From a virus: a stretch of 20,081 bases of DNA. Position numbers and translations under genes: made by a program. Positions 4,122 to 18,548 of this stretch are shown here, in pieces (positions within the stretch are counted from its first letter, which is position 1; each line of letters opens with the position of its first letter). Below the pieces are notes generated by a model. That model was not told the DNA's origin, did not search any database, and worked only from the letters and a program-made list of their open reading frames with translations. The DNA lies in the IMG/VR virus record IMGVR_UViG_3300010885_033898, positions 1-20,081 of that record. One strand, given 5' to 3'.

Positions 4122-5096
4122 ATGGCAACTTTATCAGAAATCAGAGCAAAACTTCAAGCATCATCTCAACAAAACACCAGTAGCTCAAGTGGTGGAGACA
4201 ACGCAATTTACCCCCATTGGAATATCGCAGAAGGAACAAACGCAACAGTTCGTTTCTTGCCTGACGCTGATCCAAATAACACCTTCTTCTGGATTGAACG
4301 TGCAATGATCAAATTGCCATTTGCAGGAGTCAAGGGCGAAACAAATTCTAAACCTACACAGGTACAAGTTCCTTGTATGGAAATGTGGGGGGAGACTTGT
4401 CCAATTCTTACTGAGGTACGTCCTTGGTTTAAGGACAAGAGTTTAGAAGAGATGGGTCGTAAATATTGGAAAAAGAAATCTTATCTGTTTCAAGGATTTG
4501 TTGTTGAAAGCAAATACCAAGAAGAAGGTAAAACTCCTGAGAATCCAATCCGTAGATTTATTATCGGTGCTCAGATTTTTAACATTGTTAAAAACGCATT
4601 GATGGATAGTGAGATTGAAGAATTACCAACAGACTATGTACGTGGTTTAGATTTCAAAATCACAAAAACTAGCAAAGGCGGCTATGCTGATTACTCTACT
4701 AGTAATTGGGCTCGTCGTGAACGTGCGTTAAGTGAAGACGAATTGTCTGCTATTAAACAATATAATTTGTTTGATCTTAAGAGCTTCCTACCTAAGAAGC
4801 CCGGCGAAGTTGAACTCAAGGTCATGAAAGAAATGTTTGAAGCATCAGTTGACGGTGAAGCATTTGATATGGATCGTTGGGGTCAATATTTCAAACCATA
4901 CGGTTATAGCGCACCTGCAGGTTCAACTGCTAGTCCTACTATCAGTGCTAAACCAGCCCCTGCCGGAGTTGACGAAGATGAAGTTCCGTTTGATCCAACA
5001 CCTGCTAAAAGTGTTGAAAAAACAGGAGATACTGACAGCGCAAGCTCACGTGCTCAAGACATCTTGTCAATGATTCGTAGCCGTAACAAACAATAA
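4122..5096 (+). CDS. 32: Single-stranded DNA-binding protein (gp32-like)
   Basis: This is the helix-destabilising protein that coats ssDNA during replication and recombination and that UvsY and UvsX must displace. Its order before uvsX and uvsY and the core pattern support the call: the N-terminal LRAKLQAS-like segment, the aromatic-rich OB-fold region around residues 28-230, and an acidic stretch DEDEVPFD before a short basic C-terminus. T4 gp32 holds zinc with one His and three Cys. Here C85 and C93 (in ETCPILTE) remain, but the final Cys of the CPxC pair is replaced, so the zinc site looks incomplete. An AGGA sequence lies 9 nt before the ATG. At 324 residues it is slightly longer than T4 gp32 (301). 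Confidence 0.88.
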   Translation: MATLSEIRAKLQASSQQNTSSSSGGDNAIYPHWNIAEGTNATVRFLPDADPNNTFFWIERAMIKLPFAGVKGETNSKPTQVQVPCMEMWGETCPILTEVRPWFKDKSLEEMGRKYWKKKSYLFQGFVVESKYQEEGKTPENPIRRFIIGAQIFNIVKNALMDSEIEELPTDYVRGLDFKITKTSKGGYADYSTSNWARRERALSEDELSAIKQYNLFDLKSFLPKKPGEVELKVMKEMFEASVDGEAFDMDRWGQYFKPYGYSAPAGSTASPTISAKPAPAGVDEDEVPFDPTPAKSVEKTGDTDSASSRAQDILSMIRSRNKQ

Positions 5097-11832: not shown

Positions 11833-12206
11833 GAGAGTTTTGTCAAAAACATAATATCACTGTTGTTAATACTAGTAAAAGATTTGCAAGATATAAACCC
11901 GTCAACTATCAGTATTTTAGTGATCCTAAAGATTATAATGTAATTAACGACTCTCATATTATACATGAAACCGAACCATTATACACGATAGAGATACCGC
12001 TAAGTGAGTTAGAACGTATTAAAGAATTTGAAGAGCAGGTCTTTAATAATATGAAACAAAATGGAGCACACCATTATCAAATGTTTGAAGTTATGATGGA
12101 GCAAAAACATAAAGAAAAAAGCCTACGAGACAAACATCCAGCGGTGAAAAAAGCATACGAACATTATAGCCTTATATTGAAATTAGCAGAAAGCGGAGAA
12201 TTGTAA
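11829..12206 (+). CDS. Small hypothetical protein coupled to the mini-DnaE gene
   Basis: The 125-residue product is not recognised. The first half is beta-like (NITVVNTSKRFARYKPVNYQYF, HETEPLYTIEIPLSELERI); the second half is helical and charged (EEQVFNNMKQNGAHHYQMFEVMMEQKHKEK ending in a YEHYSLILKLAESGEL helix). The ATG overlaps the previous stop by four bases with GAGG upstream, and its stop overlaps the next ATG (TAATG). Strict coupling on both sides suggests its product acts with the zinc-finger protein and the polymerase-like protein; this is inference. Confidence 0.83.
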   Translation: MREFCQKHNITVVNTSKRFARYKPVNYQYFSDPKDYNVINDSHIIHETEPLYTIEIPLSELERIKEFEEQVFNNMKQNGAHHYQMFEVMMEQKHKEKSLRDKHPAVKKAYEHYSLILKLAESGEL

Positions 12207-12787
12207 TGCCAGATATTGACATCGATTTCTTAGACAGAACAAAAATACTTGATGTTATTAAACATGTACCTGCGACAATCAAAGATGCAAATGGCACTTT
12301 TAAAAAGCACAATACCGGAGTTTATTGTCACACTATTCCAATTAATCCATTAACTGGTATGTCAAGCATTGACTACAAAGAAGCAGATAGCAGAGGATAT
12401 TTTAAAATTGATTTTTTAAATGCAGGGGTATATAAAAATGTTCGTGACGAAAACCATTTAATTTATTTGATGAATAACGAACCATTGTGGGATCTGTTAG
12501 AACAAGATGATTTTAGTAGTATGCTATTCCATGTAGGGGAACATGGCACAGTATTAAAACAAATGAAACCAAAATCAGTGCTTGAACTTGCGGCAGTATT
12601 GGCAATGATACGCCCAGCTAAACGTTATCTAATTGGGCAAGATTGGACTACTGTTAATAAAGAAGTTTGGATAAAACCTGAGAACGATGATTACTATTTT
12701 AAGAAGGCACATGCTGTGGCCTACGCTATGGCCATTGTGGTTCAAATGAATCTTATCTGTGAACAGATTAGTTACGGATTTTCTTGA
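12206..12787 (+). CDS. Miniature DnaE-like (DNA polymerase III alpha, family C) catalytic-core protein
   Basis: This 193-residue protein contains, in the right order, the hallmark segments of the bacterial replicative polymerase DnaE. MPDIDIDF (D3, D5) matches PDFDVDF with catalytic D401 and D403 of E. coli. KHNTGV (34-39) matches [15 protein letters not shown] (64-72, D69) matches LVKFDFLGL with catalytic D555. [28 protein letters not shown] (108-137) matches [39 protein letters not shown] (165-175) matches FNKSHSAAYAL. E. coli DnaE is 1160 residues; here the PHP, most of the fingers and thumb, the clamp-binding and OB parts are missing, and the spacing between catalytic aspartates is shortened. 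Both ends are normal (GGAG before the ATG; TAATG coupling), so it is not a truncated fragment. Activity is unknown; T4-like phages normally use the family B polymerase gp43. Confidence 0.82.
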   Translation: [193 protein letters not shown]

Positions 12788-13151
12788 CCGTACGTACTAA
12801 TTGTATACTTTTACGTTTGATGCGCTTTTCGGCAATTTCACTGAGGTTGACTGTGGGACCAAACATAATCTCAATATCCTTACTATTGAATGTCTTTATA
12901 TAACCCCTAAAAACTATCATATCTTGTTTTAAAAAAATATTAATTGGTATTTTGCGATTACTTTCCCACCACCAACATTCTCCCAGATTTAAAAAAGATT
13001 GCTTATGTTGCTCTAGCTTGATACTGCTTAAATCATACATACTAGTGACATGATCATCGAAATTAATGATGATCCCGACGTATTCTATATCGTTTGACTT
13101 AATACATGTAATAAATGGAAATGATTGTTGAAAGTTGTTTTTGCTAAACAT
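12768..13151 (-). CDS. Conserved T4-like phage protein of unknown function
   Basis: The 127-residue product starts MFSKNNFQQSFPFITCI, continues with a beta-rich EYVGIIINFDDHVTSMYDLSSI, then the constrained GECWWWESNRKIPINIFLKQDM, FKTFNSKD-type and GPTVNLSEI segments, and ends in a very basic tail (KRIKRKSIQLVRTVKKIRN). I recall similar proteins in marine T4-like phages without known function. The basic tail suggests nucleic-acid contact. It converges on the mini-DnaE gene with a 20-nt overlap of coding ends and diverges from the structural gene with 21 nt between starts. No Shine-Dalgarno is visible. A TATAAATA on its strand lies about 40 nt upstream of the ATG. Confidence 0.85.
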   Translation of the reverse strand: MFSKNNFQQSFPFITCIKSNDIEYVGIIINFDDHVTSMYDLSSIKLEQHKQSFLNLGECWWWESNRKIPINIFLKQDMIVFRGYIKTFNSKDIEIMFGPTVNLSEIAEKRIKRKSIQLVRTVKKIRN

Positions 13152-13172: not shown

Positions 13173-14057
13173 ATGCTAAAATGCCCAGTTTATTTATACA
13201 CCAATTTGTTCGACGTCATATTGGATTTGGATCAAAATACAAGGACTTATAATATTATGTATCAACGTGACCTCAAAATTCAAAAAGGACTGCAAAATAA
13301 GATACAGTTCCAATTCAAAAATAGCGATCAGAAACGATTGACAGTTAACAACGATACTTATGTCTTTAGTATGTTTAACATAATTGATCGACGCTTATTA
13401 ATAGAAAAAGAAATAGAAATACTTGACGACGGGACAACTACTAGTACACGTGGGTTGGGACTGTTAACCTTACGTGAAAGCGATACATTGAATTTGGATA
13501 ACGGCTATTATAAGTTTAGTGTTAAAAAATATAACAGCGACGGTACATACGACCCTGCATATTCCAATACCTATTACGGTATTAACGGTACATTGGAAAT
13601 ACTAGAAGATGTATTCCCGGTACTACAGCCCAGTCAAACATCTACTATCTTACAACCGCTTTATAATGTTGATCTAGATGCACAACGATTTGAATTTTAT
13701 AGCGGAAACTTTAGAGCACATCCGGAATTCCAATCAAATGCCGCTCTACATACTATGTCATTATATCTTAATAACTTTAAAGGTATTATAAAAATACAGG
13801 GCAGTCAGGAAAATAGCGTCGATACATTTGGTAACTTTTCTACAATTGACACATTAACTTATAATACCAATACCACAAGATTAATATATAGAAATTTTGT
13901 TGGCGTTTGGAGTTTTGTAAGAGCAATCTTTATTCCAGACAATTCTGGACAATACAACAACCAAAACTTTCTGAGCCCAAGTATGCCCGGCAATCCTACT
14001 CCAGGTATGGCATTCTATCCTAACGGAAAAGTTGACAAAATCATTTATAGATATTAA
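13173..14057 (+). CDS. Probable virion structural protein (baseplate/tail-fibre type)
   Basis: The product is 294 residues from the chosen ATG and is beta-rich throughout (VYLYTNLFDVILDLDQ, DLKIQKGLQNKIQFQFKNSDQK, VFSMFNIIDRRLLIEKEIEIL, GYYKFSVKKYNSDGTYDPAYSNTYYGINGTLEI, TRLIYRNFVGVWSFVRAIF). Such segments are usual in phage structural proteins with sandwich domains that bind fibres; an N-terminal domain like those of baseplate upper proteins (BppU type) is possible. An upstream in-frame ATG at 13125 is rejected because it would overlap the divergent gene and the promoter; an internal ATG at 13257 would discard a well-formed N-terminus. The late promoter 5 nt upstream fits a virion component. 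It stands alone, away from other recognisable structural genes. Confidence 0.82.
   Translation: MLKCPVYLYTNLFDVILDLDQNTRTYNIMYQRDLKIQKGLQNKIQFQFKNSDQKRLTVNNDTYVFSMFNIIDRRLLIEKEIEILDDGTTTSTRGLGLLTLRESDTLNLDNGYYKFSVKKYNSDGTYDPAYSNTYYGINGTLEILEDVFPVLQPSQTSTILQPLYNVDLDAQRFEFYSGNFRAHPEFQSNAALHTMSLYLNNFKGIIKIQGSQENSVDTFGNFSTIDTLTYNTNTTRLIYRNFVGVWSFVRAIFIPDNSGQYNNQNFLSPSMPGNPTPGMAFYPNGKVDKIIYRY
13191..13198 (-). promoter_or_regulatory. Possible late promoter TATAAATA for the minus-strand 127-residue gene
   Basis: On the minus strand this is an exact copy of the T4 late consensus TATAAATA. It would start transcription near 13185, giving a 34-nt leader before the ATG at 13151. It lies inside the plus-strand coding sequence, so it may be chance, and the leader has no Shine-Dalgarno. 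Confidence 0.35.
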
Positions 14058-14066: not shown

Positions 14067-15053
14067 ATGAGTCTCATACAGAACACACTATTAGCAGTCT
14101 TGCCTCCAAATCGCAAGAAGACTCCTAGTGGTTGGGATAGCTTTAATGCACCCTGTTGTCATCATAGAGGTAATAGACAAGACGATCGCAAACGTGGCGG
14201 TATAATGATTACTGGAGATTCATTCAGCTATCACTGCTTTAATTGTGGATTCAAAGCAGGTTGGAGCCCGGGTAAACTCCTTAGCACTAATACACGTAAA
14301 TTATTTAATTGGATGGGCATACCCGATATCGAAGTACAACGTATGGCCCTAGAAGCATTGAAAGATCAACAATCATTACCTGTTTATAAAAAACAATTTA
14401 GTTTTGATTTGGAAGATGTGGCACTACCAAACGAGTGCAAAACTATCGAACAATGGGTTAACGAAGGATCTAACGACCCCGATCTTGTTGCAGTTATTAA
14501 TTACATATTAGATCGTGGTATGAACTACGATTGGTATCCGTGGATGTGGAGTGCGGCTAATGGATATAGAGATCGTGTGATATTACCATTCTATCAAGAC
14601 GATAGAATTGTTGGCTATACAGGACGTAAAATTGTAGACGGGAAACCAAAATATCTAACCCATAGCCAACCTAGCTATGTGTTTAATCTAACAAGACAAC
14701 AAAATTCAAGAAAATATGTTATAGTAGTAGAAGGACAATTTGATGCAGTGGCAGTGGATGGTGTTGCTATAATGAGTAACGAAGCCAATGATGCACAAAT
14801 ATCAAGAATAAATTCATTGACCCGAGAAGTTATAGTGGTACCAGATAGAGATCGTGCTGGTGCTAAGATGTTAAAAACTGCATTAGATAACGGATGGTCA
14901 GTGAGCTTACCACCATGGAACAACGGCGTTAAAGATGTTGCCGATGCTGTTAAACAATACGGACGATTATATACATTAGCCACTATTTTACATTACAAAG
15001 AATCTAATCAGATAAAAATACAACTACTAAAGAAAAAACTAGAAAATGAATAA
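14067..15053 (+). CDS. 61: DNA primase (gp61-like, zinc and TOPRIM domains)
   Basis: The primase makes RNA primers for lagging-strand synthesis and works with the gp41 helicase as the primosome. The N-terminal zinc-binding domain shows C30, C31, H32, H33 and the C57-x2-C60 pair (YHCFNCGFKAGW). The catalytic TOPRIM domain shows VVEGQFDAVA with E222 and VPDRDRAG with D260 and D262. In between, YRDRVILPFYQDDRIVGYTGRKI resembles the N-terminal part of primase catalytic cores. At 328 residues it is close to T4 gp61 (342). The gene begins 10 nt after the structural gene, and its last 8 nt overlap the helicase start, so primase and helicase are coupled. Confidence 0.95.
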   Translation: MSLIQNTLLAVLPPNRKKTPSGWDSFNAPCCHHRGNRQDDRKRGGIMITGDSFSYHCFNCGFKAGWSPGKLLSTNTRKLFNWMGIPDIEVQRMALEALKDQQSLPVYKKQFSFDLEDVALPNECKTIEQWVNEGSNDPDLVAVINYILDRGMNYDWYPWMWSAANGYRDRVILPFYQDDRIVGYTGRKIVDGKPKYLTHSQPSYVFNLTRQQNSRKYVIVVEGQFDAVAVDGVAIMSNEANDAQISRINSLTREVIVVPDRDRAGAKMLKTALDNGWSVSLPPWNNGVKDVADAVKQYGRLYTLATILHYKESNQIKIQLLKKKLENE

Positions 15054-16485
15054 ACCAAACTATAACTACGATGTACAGGTATTATATATCGAAATGTTCC
15101 TGTCAGATGCAGAAACATTTGCTCGCTGTCAAAATATATTTGACCCGCAAAACTTTGATCAACGATTACATGATACTGCGGAATTTATTAATAACTACGT
15201 AGAAAAATATATGGTCCTGCCTTCTGTGGAAATTGTTAATGCAGAATGTAGTAGAGAACTAAAACCTATTACATTGCCACAGGAAAACTACGAATGGCTC
15301 ATGGACGAATTTGAACGCTTTAGTAGACATAAAGCATTGGAACGTGCCATTATACAGAGTGCCGATCTTCTTGAAAAAGGAGACTACGGCCCAGTGGAAA
15401 AATTGGTTAAAGATGCTATACAAATATCATTGAACAAAGATATGGGCACAGATTATTTTGAAGACCCTAGAGCACGATTAGAAGCATTGAAAAACTCAAA
15501 TGGACAAATATCTACAGGTTGGCCCAGCATTGATAAGAAATTGTACGGTGGCTTTAATCGAGGTGAACTTAATATATTCTGTGCAGGGTCAGGCGGTGGT
15601 AAATCATTATTCCTCGCTAACTTGGGTGTGAACTGGGCATTGCAAGGTTTGAACGTATTATATCTAACTTTTGAATTGGCAGAGAATTTGGTGTCAATGA
15701 GATTGGATTCTATGATGACTGGAATTGGTACTAGAGAGATATTTAAAAATATTGACGATGTTGAACTTAGAGTTAAACTTTTGGAAAAAAAGGCGGGAAG
15801 TATACAGATCAAGTATATGCCCAGCGGTAAAAATTGTAACGATATTCGAGCCTATTTGAAGGAATATCAGGTCAAAAAAGGCCTAAAACCAGACGTAATT
15901 TTAATAGATTACTTGGATTTAATGATGCCACTAAGTGTGAAGGTGTCGCCCAGCGATCTGTTTGTTAAAGACAAATATGTGAGTGAAGAGATCCGTAATT
16001 TGGCCATGGAAACAAAAGCAATTTGTGTAACAGCTAGTCAATTAAATCGTTCAGCAGTTGAGGAAATTGAATTTGATCACAGCCATATTTCAGGAGGATT
16101 GAGTAAGATTATGACAGCAGATAACGTCATAGGTATCTTTACTAGTCGTGCTATGAAGGAACGTGGTAGATATCAAATTCAATTTATGAAAACACGTTCA
16201 AGTAGTGGTGTGGGTCAAAAATTAGATTTAGAATTTAACTTAGATACACTTAGAATTACAGATCTAGGCGAAGAAGAATCACAATCATTGGGACAAACTA
16301 CTGGCAATGGAAATAGTGTATACGCTAATTTAAAGAAAACTAGTACAGTTACACCCACAAATACAGATCCCGAAACCGGCGAAATAGATATTAGAAATGG
16401 AACTAATGCACCTAAAGTCCGAGCAGATGTTGGAGGTGCTAGAATTAAAGCACTATTGGCTGGATTGAATTCTGAAAAAGATTAA
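15046..16485 (+). CDS. 41: Replicative DNA helicase (gp41-like, DnaB type)
   Basis: This hexameric helicase opens the fork for the polymerase and binds the primase. Motifs of the DnaB/RecA-like core are clear: STGWPSIDKKLYGGFNRGEL before Walker A AGSGGGKS at residues 180-187, the FELAE segment (209-213), Walker B VILIDYLDLM at 284-293, the TASQLNRS motif, SGGLSKIMTADNVIGI, and the FMKTRSSSGVG segment with an arginine finger candidate. Residues 1-140 form the helical N-terminal domain. At 479 residues it is near T4 gp41 (475). The stop overlaps by 2-3 nt the stop of the converging YqgE-family gene. Confidence 0.96.
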   Translation: MNKPNYNYDVQVLYIEMFLSDAETFARCQNIFDPQNFDQRLHDTAEFINNYVEKYMVLPSVEIVNAECSRELKPITLPQENYEWLMDEFERFSRHKALERAIIQSADLLEKGDYGPVEKLVKDAIQISLNKDMGTDYFEDPRARLEALKNSNGQISTGWPSIDKKLYGGFNRGELNIFCAGSGGGKSLFLANLGVNWALQGLNVLYLTFELAENLVSMRLDSMMTGIGTREIFKNIDDVELRVKLLEKKAGSIQIKYMPSGKNCNDIRAYLKEYQVKKGLKPDVILIDYLDLMMPLSVKVSPSDLFVKDKYVSEEIRNLAMETKAICVTASQLNRSAVEEIEFDHSHISGGLSKIMTADNVIGIFTSRAMKERGRYQIQFMKTRSSSGVGQKLDLEFNLDTLRITDLGEEESQSLGQTTGNGNSVYANLKKTSTVTPTNTDPETGEIDIRNGTNAPKVRADVGGARIKALLAGLNSEKD

Positions 16486-16501
16486 AACCACTCTTTAGTG
16501 G
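16481..16501 (-). terminator. Weak terminator-like hairpin at the end of the minus-strand YqgE-family gene
   Basis: On the minus strand CCACT-AAAG-AGTGG (16501-16488) is followed by TTTTAATCTTTTT. The stem is only 5 bp and lies inside the last codons, so termination would be modest. No comparable signal is seen for the plus-strand gp41 transcript. Confidence 0.4.
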
Positions 16502-17066
16502 CATCACTGGCAGCTTCTGAAATAGCATTCTGCCATTGAAAACTTTCTTCAAACTCAAAAACATTTTCTATTGTTGCAGGTACACTTAACCAACGATGTT
16601 CGGGCAACCACGGCGGTATCCCCGCCATTTCCCCCTCTAATTGCCCGGGACCCCACGCACACATACCTATGGCTACACGATAATGCTCGGGGCCTTGATT
16701 GTTAGCTATGGCAGCTAAAATACTGAGATCACTGGTCACTCCTATTCCACAGAGATAATCCCCTCGAACAATCTGTGTACCTGAACTAAACCAATCCATG
16801 CTATGTATTACATGAATCTTATTGGTTTCTACAGGACCACCTACATATAATGGTTCGGGTTGATCTGCTGAATATTCTATACCCGCTTGATTCATTATTA
16901 CTTCTAATCCGCTTTCTAATTTGTTGAACACTCGATTGGTAATTACTCCCCATGCACCTTGATTTGTATGGGCTATTACTAATATCGTGCTACGGGCAAA
17001 GAAATTAGTAACACATTTGGGCTGTGCTATTAATATCTGTCCTTGATATGTGGTTCTTCCTGTCAT
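16482..17066 (-). CDS. yqgE: YqgE/AlgH family protein (UPF0301), phage-encoded
   Basis: The 194-residue product has the full family signature. GQILIAQPKCVTNFFARSTILVIAH matches the GxLLIAxPxxxDxxFxRSVVLLxxH start. GAWGVITNR (38-45) matches GAxGLVINR. YVGGPVE (74-80), HVIHSMDW (85-92), GVTSDLSILAAI (109-120) and AIGMCAWGPGQLEGEM (132-147) with WL also match. Length is normal for the family, which in bacteria is a conserved cytoplasmic protein with no settled biochemical role. A phage-borne copy is unusual in my experience. It is alone on the minus strand between gp41 and a nucleotidyltransferase, with a late-like promoter 5 nt before its ATG and no Shine-Dalgarno. C18, C106 and C136 are present, but no pattern points to a cofactor. 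Confidence 0.92.
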   Translation of the reverse strand: MTGRTTYQGQILIAQPKCVTNFFARSTILVIAHTNQGAWGVITNRVFNKLESGLEVIMNQAGIEYSADQPEPLYVGGPVETNKIHVIHSMDWFSSGTQIVRGDYLCGIGVTSDLSILAAIANNQGPEHYRVAIGMCAWGPGQLEGEMAGIPPWLPEHRWLSVPATIENVFEFEESFQWQNAISEAASDATKEWF

Positions 17067-17071
17067 GCTAG

Positions 17072-17079
17072 TATTTACT
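17072..17079 (-). promoter_or_regulatory. T4-late-like promoter for the YqgE-family gene (AGTAAATA, 5 nt before ATG)
   Basis: On the minus strand AGTAAATA is followed by CTAGC and the ATG at 17066-17064. With T4 geometry, +1 is the A of the ATG. It lies back to back with the plus-strand motif at 17081-17088 in a 29-nt intergenic gap, with a single base (17080) between the two octamers. Confidence 0.68.
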
Positions 17080-17080
17080 C

Positions 17081-17088
17081 GATAAATA
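17081..17088 (+). promoter_or_regulatory. T4-late-like promoter for the nucleotidyltransferase gene (GATAAATA, 7 nt before ATG)
   Basis: GATAAATA ends at 17088, and the ATG is at 17096 after a 7-nt spacer (ACTGATC). The predicted +1 is 2 nt upstream of the start codon. There is no space for a Shine-Dalgarno sequence. Confidence 0.62.
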
Positions 17089-17095
17089 ACTGATC

Positions 17096-17785
17096 ATGCG
17101 AGCCTCTGAACTAGTACCAGGTGTGATCCTGCACACCGAATTAAACCCTAAACTTTGGACTTTAACTAATAAATTAACGCCCAAGGTCCGTGCGGCATTA
17201 TTGAAAATCGCTATTAAATTCCACAAGTTTCTTGAGGTTCCTGTACAGGTCAAAGATGTGATCATCACCGGTAGTCAGGCTAATTACAGCTATACAGATA
17301 AAAGCGACTTGGATCTACATCTGATCATAGACTATAACCGGGTGCAATGCGATCAACCTGTTGACGAATTGTTCGATACTAAACGTAGCTTATGGAAACT
17401 TAAACATAATATTAATATCCACGATATACCTGTGGAACTATATGTAGAAGATCTTAATAAACCAGTTACAGGTAGCAGTTATAGCATAATCTTAGATCAA
17501 TGGATTAATCATCCCCAACGGCATGCAGAACATCTGCCCGGAGGCGTTGACGGCGTTACTAATGCTTGGATTAGTGTGATTAATAACGCTATTGCACAGG
17601 ACAAAATTAAAGAACTCTATATGGTTAGAGATCTAATTAAAAATTATCGAAGATTGGGCCTTAAACAACAAGGTGAATTTGGTAGAGCTAATATTGTGTT
17701 TAAAACTTTGAGAAATAATGGCAAAATTAATCAACTGATGAAAGCTATTACAGATGCTGAAGATCAAAGTTTGAGTCTTGACTAA
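17096..17785 (+). CDS. Nucleotidyltransferase-fold protein (polymerase beta superfamily)
   Basis: Residues 55-78 carry the nucleotidyltransferase signature: VIITGSQANYSYTDKSDLDLHLI, with G59-S60 and the metal-binding pair D71 and D73. A third acidic position is plausible in VELYVED near residue 112. The N-terminal ELNPKLWTLTNKLTPKVRAALLKIAIKFHKFL helix and the C-terminal helical region are characteristic of a protein common in marine T4-like phages as I remember them. The substrate is unknown; nucleotide addition to RNA or protein are both possible. At 229 residues it is complete. It is preceded by a late-like promoter, and the nucleotidase gene follows after 27 nt with a promoter of its own that begins inside this gene's last codons. 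Confidence 0.88.
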   Translation: MRASELVPGVILHTELNPKLWTLTNKLTPKVRAALLKIAIKFHKFLEVPVQVKDVIITGSQANYSYTDKSDLDLHLIIDYNRVQCDQPVDELFDTKRSLWKLKHNINIHDIPVELYVEDLNKPVTGSSYSIILDQWINHPQRHAEHLPGGVDGVTNAWISVINNAIAQDKIKELYMVRDLIKNYRRLGLKQQGEFGRANIVFKTLRNNGKINQLMKAITDAEDQSLSLD

Positions 17786-18310: not shown

Positions 18311-18548
18311 GTAAGAACAACGTGGTGTCACGCTCACGAAGAAAACTTACACTACAATAACTACTTTGATGTAAGGTCCACATACTCCAGGTCCACGCTA
18401 CATAATGCGGACCTATACTACTGGCTAACCAGGACTCCACTAGATCTACACTGGCGACCCAATCCGCTTGCCCATTGTATTCTATTACTGGCCACGGTGC
18501 TATTGCCCTATACGGCAATTCTGGATATTTGTCCCATAACATGCGCAT
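18297..18548 (-). CDS. Small tryptophan-rich hypothetical protein
   Basis: The 83-residue product is not recognised. It is rich in Trp and Tyr (MLWDKYPELPYRAIAPWPVIEYNGQ at the start, HYVAWTWSMWTLHQ in the middle) and ends in FLLKWG. There is no clear membrane segment or metal motif. It is called a gene because GTAAATA lies 6 nt before its ATG, the same arrangement as six other genes here, and because it fills the space up to the nucleotidase end with only a 14-nt convergent overlap. A second ATG two codons in is equally close. Confidence 0.72.
   Translation of the reverse strand: MRMLWDKYPELPYRAIAPWPVIEYNGQADWVASVDLVESWLASSIGPHYVAWTWSMWTLHQSSYCSVSFLRERDTTLFLLKWG

Follow-up and report, generated by a model that had tools for sequence, protein, structure and literature searches.

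A phage branch of the UPF0301/AlgH/YqgE family, late by its promoter class, at a fixed place beside the replicative helicase gene of large T4-related phages

What does a member of the UPF0301/AlgH/YqgE protein family do in a phage, and at which stage of infection is it made? This question is raised by one gene in the IMG/VR record IMGVR_UViG_3300010885_033898, of which positions 1 to 20,081 (20,081 bases, hereafter the window) were analyzed. The gene in question, with its length in amino acids (aa), is:

16482..17066, minus strand: yqgE-like gene, phage branch of UPF0301/AlgH (PF02622), 194 aa; identified by Pfam, NCBIfam, PDB sequences, structure model and fold search

Taking identity and late class jointly, the gene almost certainly represents a branch of UPF0301/AlgH/YqgE that is specific to phages and maintained by vertical descent, and that its promoter assigns to the late class. 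The function of its product allows far more tentative statements, and an action on a Clp unfoldase-protease is the reading favored here.

The open reading frame (ORF) extends from an ATG at 17066 to a TAA stop, and its product matches PF02622 (DUF179, AlgH-like) in Pfam-A with a score of 99.7 bits (E 2.1e-28), the gathering threshold being 27. This sole Pfam match spans protein residues 20-184 and profile positions 5-155 of 157. A search of the PDB sequences yielded eight matches, which are the same eight AlgH-fold entries that top the fold search with the AlphaFold model (predicted local distance difference test, pLDDT, 92.1), the following row of that search reaching a Z of only 3.3. The model aligns to 2ew0 over 175 residues with a Z of 24.7 and a root-mean-square deviation of 2.6, and to AlgH of Pseudomonas aeruginosa (2mui) with a Z of 18.1. 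Since none of the NCBIfam YqgE/AlgH equivalogs NF001266-NF001272 reached its cut-off (best 109.9 bits vs. 216), the protein is regarded as a member of UPF0301 and is left unassigned as an equivalent of bacterial YqgE. It is a single compact domain, for which the libraries searched gave neither a PHROGs family nor an enzyme family. The base composition near the gene is in no way unusual, and a terminator-like stem close to the stop codon (16502-16487) was not used as evidence, one such stem being seen where 1.2 were expected. The original prediction of an intact, phage-encoded UPF0301 gene of normal length is borne out by these results, with the profile search placing the protein firmly in the family.

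The distribution of the gene involves two neighbors:

15046..16485, plus strand: DnaB/gp41-like replicative helicase gene, convergent with the yqgE-like gene and overlapping its stop
17096..17785, plus strand: divergent nucleotidyltransferase-type (NTase) gene, phrog_36119, 229 aa, conserved neighbor

According to Pfam and PHROGs, the gene set of the window is that of a T4-related phage, featuring a T4-type terminase, UvsX, UvsW, the DnaB/gp41-like helicase and a primase. By helicase, the nearest named phages (about 50% identity) are the large Pseudomonas phages of the PA5oct group, Agrobacterium phage Atu_ph07 and Sinorhizobium phage Phosso. A single-sequence search with the window protein found 5 loci, and a profile of five rows led to 75 confirmed yqgE loci in IMG/VR out of 104 pattern matches, near-copies included. 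Full-length copies are present in 68 of the 75 and reduce to 46 representatives at 90% identity; among the other seven, five are truncated by the end of their contig, and two (L069 and L083) were excluded for poorly aligning ends. Downstream of yqgE, all 75 loci have the convergent helicase on the other strand, within 40 nucleotides (nt) in 72. The NTase gene lies upstream, likewise on the opposite strand, in 66/75 loci and within 110 nt in 65. Five of the nine loci without it are cut at a contig end, inside or just before yqgE; the remaining four (L015, L021, L069, and L083) have room for an NTase gene, but none was found there by tblastn. Loci chosen by their helicase avoid selection by yqgE itself, and among the best 80 of the helicase matches listed, 68 carry yqgE, seven belong to contigs ending directly after the helicase, and five are without the gene (L117, L127, L128, L132, and L165, with only 301 bases left in L132). 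In L127, an NTase gene with a TAAATA element follows the helicase directly (4434-5060).

The presence across related phages, which had been suggested for checking, thus extends through a whole clade. The gene is single-copy in 8/8 contigs of 107-355 kb, and the ratio of nonsynonymous to synonymous substitution rates (dN/dS) in close pairs has a median of 0.054 and a maximum of 0.106 (36 usable of 38 non-independent pairs), which indicates that phage yqgE is under strong purifying selection; no pseudogene-like decay was seen in the relatives. An NT5C gene was detected near yqgE in 35 loci, 18 times on one strand and 17 times on the other; this flank is hence rearranged, in contrast to the stable helicase-yqgE junction. 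Two exceptions to the fixed place were encountered: in contig G021, other DNA lies between the yqgE-like gene and the helicase, and in G027, no helicase is present within the 5.5 kb read and the N-terminus of the YqgE-like protein looks more bacterial. Overall, phage yqgE is a lineage gene kept at one place beside the replicative helicase in a clade of large T4-related phages.

PA5oct, Atu_ph07, and Phosso have no YqgE annotated at the helicase place; with the YqgE profile, the first two genomes gave no match, and a stretch in Phosso scored at chance level only (E 0.04). The phage records of INPHARED gave four YqgE matches. Two of them are contigs named 'Acinetobacter phage MD-2021a' (H1 and H2; CAKLQH020000005 and CAKLQF020000005), both rejected as phage yqgE: the former shows a bacterial-looking recN-yqgE-yqgF order, the latter was judged by the same name and annotation. 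The third, AGRM01000002, is a contig labelled as Salmonella, has its yqgE next to a RuvX-like gene and was rejected as well; the fourth is a 4.1 kb faecal fragment devoid of annotation. Searching bacterial genomes with the phage-type pattern gave five stretches and no relative among them.

The original prediction had further placed the gene under a late-type promoter. The features concerned are:

17072..17077, minus strand: late-promoter element TAAATA belonging to the yqgE-like gene, 5 nt ahead of the ATG
17083..17088, plus strand: late-promoter element TAAATA facing the opposite way and belonging to the divergent NTase gene, 7 nt ahead of the ATG
13173..14057, plus strand: virion-type gene, late-class reference; the ORF call begins at 13125, relatives indicate an ATG at 13173

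As a match to the T4 late consensus, this promoter did not hold. Sites resembling TATAAATA with at most one mismatch occur 62 times in the window against 64.2 expected, hence without excess, and the exact TATAAATA is not found at yqgE, where the promoter reads AGTAAATA-N5-ATG. What stands is the TAAATA core at a conserved position. In the loci of the clade (near-copies included), it forms a sole peak 4-9 nt before the ATG, with a mode of 5 and few occurrences elsewhere; the regions taken from PA5oct, Atu_ph07, and Phosso contain two, zero and zero TAAATA sites at this distance. Judged by these counts, position, beyond sequence alone, is a conserved property of the element.

The classes of genes carrying the element were compared by gene family in 48 loci, whereby rows matching after query residue 40 or lacking a start codon were dropped and in-frame starts close to the N-terminus were all accepted, equally for every family. 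TAAATA was found 4-9 nt before the start of yqgE in 48/48, of the NTase gene in 45/45 and of the virion-type gene in 39/39 cases, as well as for the terminase (1/1), the structural gene at 1755 (1/1) and the small gene at 18548 (7/9). The helicase (0/46), primase (0/45), DnaE-like (0/43), NT5C (0/25), and RFC-like (0/16) genes lack it, as do UvsX, UvsW and the genes at 4122 and 9611 (0/1 each) and the genes at 12768 (0/45), 11137 (0/17), 19561 (0/17), 10392 (0/9), 19800 (0/8), and 10118 (0/3). Fourteen other orders of the same letters averaged at most 4.9 in this count. In the larger set, the element is found in 69 of the 71 yqgE loci whose upstream DNA is long enough, and within the window it precedes the starts at 154, 1755, 13173, 17066, 17096, 18548, and 18751. 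A wider view is offered by contig G006 (331,570 bases): in the 160 kb examined, 21/181 ORFs feature the element. Seventeen of these were scanned, and 8 gave matches to virion or packaging families (terminase, tail tube, head-tail adaptor, tape measure or virion proteins), in one case as the third-best match only. The virion-type gene of the window shares its gene order with a PA5oct gene annotated 'structural protein, ESI-MS/MS', and its G006 counterpart (L266:6735-7637) matches the virion structural family phrog_14467 (E 1.1e-9). The late class of yqgE by promoter, shared with terminase and virion genes and absent from replication genes, is therefore well supported by the sequence patterns.

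This arrangement resembles the late promoters of T4 (TATAAATA, recognized with gp55) in having a TAAATA core ahead of late genes and none before early ones, and the late element of the T4-like phage Aeh1 is given as CTAAATA (PMC1524935). It differs in that the full TATAAATA is not kept and in that the element lies 4-9 nt from the start codon, with little or no room for a leader. In T4, the late element covers -13 to -6 relative to the start of transcription (PMC1524935). With this geometry, a spacer of 5 would put that start at the A of the ATG, and the late mRNAs of the clade are accordingly predicted to be leaderless by analogy with T4. Only 9 of the 69 yqgE loci carrying the element have GGA, GAG, AGG or GGG within 15 nt before the ATG; the clpA and clpP genes examined, in contrast to the late genes, have purine-rich leaders. 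Phage transcripts are often leaderless according to a passing remark in the literature (PMC5312081).

Whether the protein acts as a copy of the host protein depends on what it shares with bacterial YqgE. A joint alignment combined the 46 phage representatives with 89 bacterial proteins, of which 80 were chosen by similarity to the window protein and are mostly Alphaproteobacterial; this choice biases the bacterial set and inflates its conservation. P16, H33, N44, G76, G77, H88, G125, P126, G134, W138, W159, and F170 are near-invariant in both groups. The claim that the whole family signature is present was only partly confirmed. The window protein keeps H33, N44, G76-G77, H88, G134, W138, and W159; it has also retained F23 and the GQLxxE stretch, which many related phage proteins have not, and Q142, which only 37% of the phage proteins keep. 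Two features are missing. The cysteine two residues before H33, found in 78/89 bacterial and 0/46 phage proteins, is Ile31 in the window protein, and at the C-terminus, EWF stands where the bacterial rows have a GHA-type ending. This cysteine column is a candidate redox site defined in the present analysis and not taken from a published definition. No cysteine occurs anywhere in 15/46 phage proteins. Conversely, G9, G62, W92, T97, I108, G109, D113, and S115 are near-invariant in the phage proteins only and are all present in the window protein, and the phage proteins feature extra residues ahead of W159.

The phylogeny points in the same direction. The tree comprised 33/46 phage representatives, 25/80 genome loci and nine others, and was built unrooted by a quick method without bootstrap, the rows of Parabacteroides and Tsukamurella being long branches that meet. 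All 33 phage proteins are separated from the 34 bacterial ones by a branch of 0.96 changes per site, supported by a value of 99 in the Shimodaira-Hasegawa-like approximate likelihood ratio test (SH-aLRT). Such a deep, separate branch indicates an old phage lineage rather than a recently taken host gene, and it leaves donor and host unreadable from the phage proteins, so that the proposed identification of the donor lineage by phylogeny failed. The genomic surroundings differ as well: gamma-proteobacterial yqgE loci show linkage to ruvX/yqgF, whereas the window gene lies between helicase and NTase genes and RuvX was found in 0/8 yqgE-positive contigs. A bacterial yqgE-ruvX pair was also noticed on the conjugative plasmid AP025670.1 (137304-145810; L178), beside blaMOX-1 and an ISCR1-type transposase gene, and was apparently brought along from a chromosome.

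For the function, the favored explanation is a late-made phage YqgE acting on Clp, which is held as a whole only tentatively, with odds clearly below even. Due to its single compact domain and the lack of an enzyme family match, the protein would act late in infection by binding another protein. The likeliest target would be a Clp unfoldase-protease of the ClpA/ClpC type, either the phage's own or that of the host, and the YqgE-like protein might serve as an adaptor or anti-adaptor altering degradation while virions are being built. This choice of target, which draws on genome content and one plant trapping study, is possible but rather doubtful. It is kept as the best single guess because Clp is the sole physical partner reported in the family literature seen and because the clade possesses Clp machinery of its own. 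In Arabidopsis, DUF179-3 was enriched in a ClpC1 trap, DUF179-1 only 1.3-fold, and DUF179-2 was not found in it; regulatory, adaptor or anti-adaptor roles were proposed by the authors for the trapped set (PMC8889267). Among the eight yqgE-positive contigs, four encode a ClpA-type ATPase (PF07724) of about 760 aa, whose genes in G005, G007, and G008 match TIGR02639 best (E 1e-264 to 1e-267), yet below the curated cut-off. ClpP (PF00574) is encoded by three of the eight, the two genes scanned (G005 and G006) both scoring above an NCBIfam ClpP cut-off, and a ClpX-type ATPase by G005 and G009, the latter gene exceeding the ClpX cut-off. These Clp genes lie at 22500-25500 and 63500-67500 in G005, 24632-25207 in G006, 41405 and 66354 in G007, 172495 in G008 and 142025 in G009. 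The ClpA-type proteins of G005 and G008 have an IGF/LGF-like loop, and a peptide deformylase gene is located just ahead of clpA in G005.

The usual adaptor of ClpA is ClpS (PF02617), which shares with phage YqgE the proposed role only and belongs to a different family. ClpS is present in the 3/3 cultured relatives without yqgE (PA5oct 172650, Atu_ph07 486307, and Phosso 398087) and in 0/8 yqgE-positive contigs, which led to the idea that YqgE replaced it. This was examined in the 16 contigs of at least 99 kb among the best 80 of the ClpA-selected loci listed: six hold ClpS only, two both genes, one YqgE only and seven neither. Accordingly, ClpS occurs in 8/16 (G013-G015, G017, G019, G020, G022, and G027, with two matches in G013) and in 6/13 of those without yqgE. 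With a size limit of at least 200 kb, picked afterwards, ClpS was found in 2/6 contigs with yqgE vs. 7/8 without (p 0.09). As contigs may be fragments, such absences are weak. Among 14 control genomes, PF02622 occurs in five and ClpS in five, with both in 4/6 of those holding either (Fisher p 0.023), an association which is post hoc and confounded by descent. That phage YqgE is a late adaptor of phage-encoded ClpAP and holds, in part of the lineage, the place taken by ClpS in relatives is decidedly improbable.

Several observations weigh against an action on Clp. A strict replacement of ClpS is rejected, as G019 and G027 carry both genes, and over all ClpA-positive records, ClpS accompanies 2/7 with yqgE vs. 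9/16 without, which is no significant difference (Fisher p 0.37). PA5oct, Atu_ph07, and Phosso possess ClpP, ClpA-type and ClpX-type genes in the absence of yqgE, so the presence of Clp fails to single out the yqgE phages. No clp gene was seen among the part of the ORFs scanned in the 20 kb window, and clpP of G006 is about 185 kb away from yqgE. Moreover, DUF179-3 may have been trapped merely as a Clp substrate.

Two other readings make use of the late class, and each is unlikely to about the same degree. The protein might preserve the envelope until virions are completed, acting like additional host YqgE against lysis proteins. Escherichia coli yqgE is one of ten high-fitness multicopy suppressors of the L-like lysis proteins from MS2, KU1, Hgal1, and PRR1 (PMC10229422), a result that also touches the suggested, still possible role in lysis timing. 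The suppression was seen with host YqgE, though, whose conserved residues differ, some of the suppressor results are called hard to rationalize by the authors themselves (PMC10229422), and the part of the window ORFs compared with Pfam and PHROGs yielded no holin or endolysin match. Alternatively, the product could be a part of the particle or a helper in its assembly, like many genes with the same promoter; in favor are the eight virion or packaging matches in G006 and the terminase and virion genes marked by TAAATA in the window. The same motif class of G006, however, also includes a radical SAM protein, a methyltransferase and a 2-oxoglutarate oxygenase, so that late does not imply virion, and a gene not found in three cultured relatives and missing at 5/80 helicase loci is unlike an essential structural part.

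A two-gene late module, in which the YqgE-like protein would be target, inhibitor or activator of nucleotidyl transfer by the divergent NTase, is more doubtful still. The company of the two genes in 66/75 yqgE loci speaks for it, as does the NTase keeping its invariant D71, D73, and E118 (together with G59 in 26/26 aligned rows). Its model (pLDDT 93.1) finds nucleotidyltransferases as best PDB matches, but these are weak, the top one (2rff, Z 7.3, 103 residues) lying below the level trustworthy alone. Against the module, four loci have yqgE without the NTase and L127 the reverse, and 45 phage records, including Synechococcus (cyanophage), Prevotella, and Maribacter phages, encode NTase relatives compared with the four YqgE matches, of which two proved on opening to be bacterial DNA and a third alike by name and annotation. 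The reading of the original prediction, a captured host gene supplying or overriding host YqgE in redox or polysaccharide control, now appears very unlikely. It could refer to the HOCl sensitivity of a P. aeruginosa algH mutant and the proposal of AlgH as a redox sensor (PMC7950407). Still, with the bacterial cysteine missing in 46/46 phage proteins, redox sensing through it is unlikely as judged from the alignment, and the old separate branch shows no donor signal. The best 80 of the bacterial matches listed for the family-wide pattern, mostly Alphaproteobacterial, are only 28-38% identical. For surface-polysaccharide regulation, nothing emerged on either side. A kept core combined with a partly retuned conserved set speaks against simple mimicry of host YqgE as well as cysteine redox chemistry, and supply or override is weakened by the phage branch having its own invariant residues and many members having lost residues kept in bacteria. 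A neutral passenger gene, finally, for which the five helicase loci without yqgE could be quoted, has next to no probability, being already contradicted by the selection result and by a place and promoter fixed across deep divergence.

Among further features, the window encodes at 12206-12787 a 193-aa protein matching the phage DNA polymerase family phrog_11778, much shorter than a polymerase. As to the family literature, algH of P. aeruginosa is described in an operon with gshB and yqgF (PMC7950407), and heat-adapted E. coli carries a yqgE frameshift (PMC12075407). A literature search for yqgE with yqgF and operon found none, the 'DUF179' of PMC9658991 is actually DUF1799, and no publication on phage-encoded YqgE was among the papers listed in searches that had subscription journals mostly outside their reach. 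An entry for such a protein exists: A0A6J7WKK4 ('COG1678 Putative transcriptional regulator', uncultured Caudovirales phage, BFVD) resembles the window protein with a template modelling (TM) score of 0.87 over the query and 26% identity, and is known by its database name alone, being compared here by fold and identity. That phages possess members of the family is thus not new as such; new are the spread, the fixed place, the late class and the divergence of phage YqgE.

In summary, the phage proteins are members of UPF0301/AlgH/YqgE (PF02622, COG1678) by full-length fold, a score far over the cut-off and shared core residues, and they differ from the bacterial ones in their own branch, the lacking cysteine and GHA-type C-terminus, phage-only residues and the lack of a RuvX match in the eight contigs searched. 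The expectation that the gene could help to study the function of the family is supported as a possibility. UPF0301 is widespread in bacteria and reaches plant plastids while its job is unsettled, and the phage branch offers a new route to that function. A phage lineage with its own selected, fixed and late version represents an independent natural experiment, in which residues common to both branches mark the shared core and residues changed in the phage mark retuning. Its small size, single domain and confident model make the protein a practical subject for pull-downs and structure determination. If phage YqgE did prove to be a late adaptor of phage-encoded ClpAP in the place of ClpS, a biochemical role could be defined for UPF0301, that of a Clp adaptor or anti-adaptor, across a range reaching from phages to chloroplasts.

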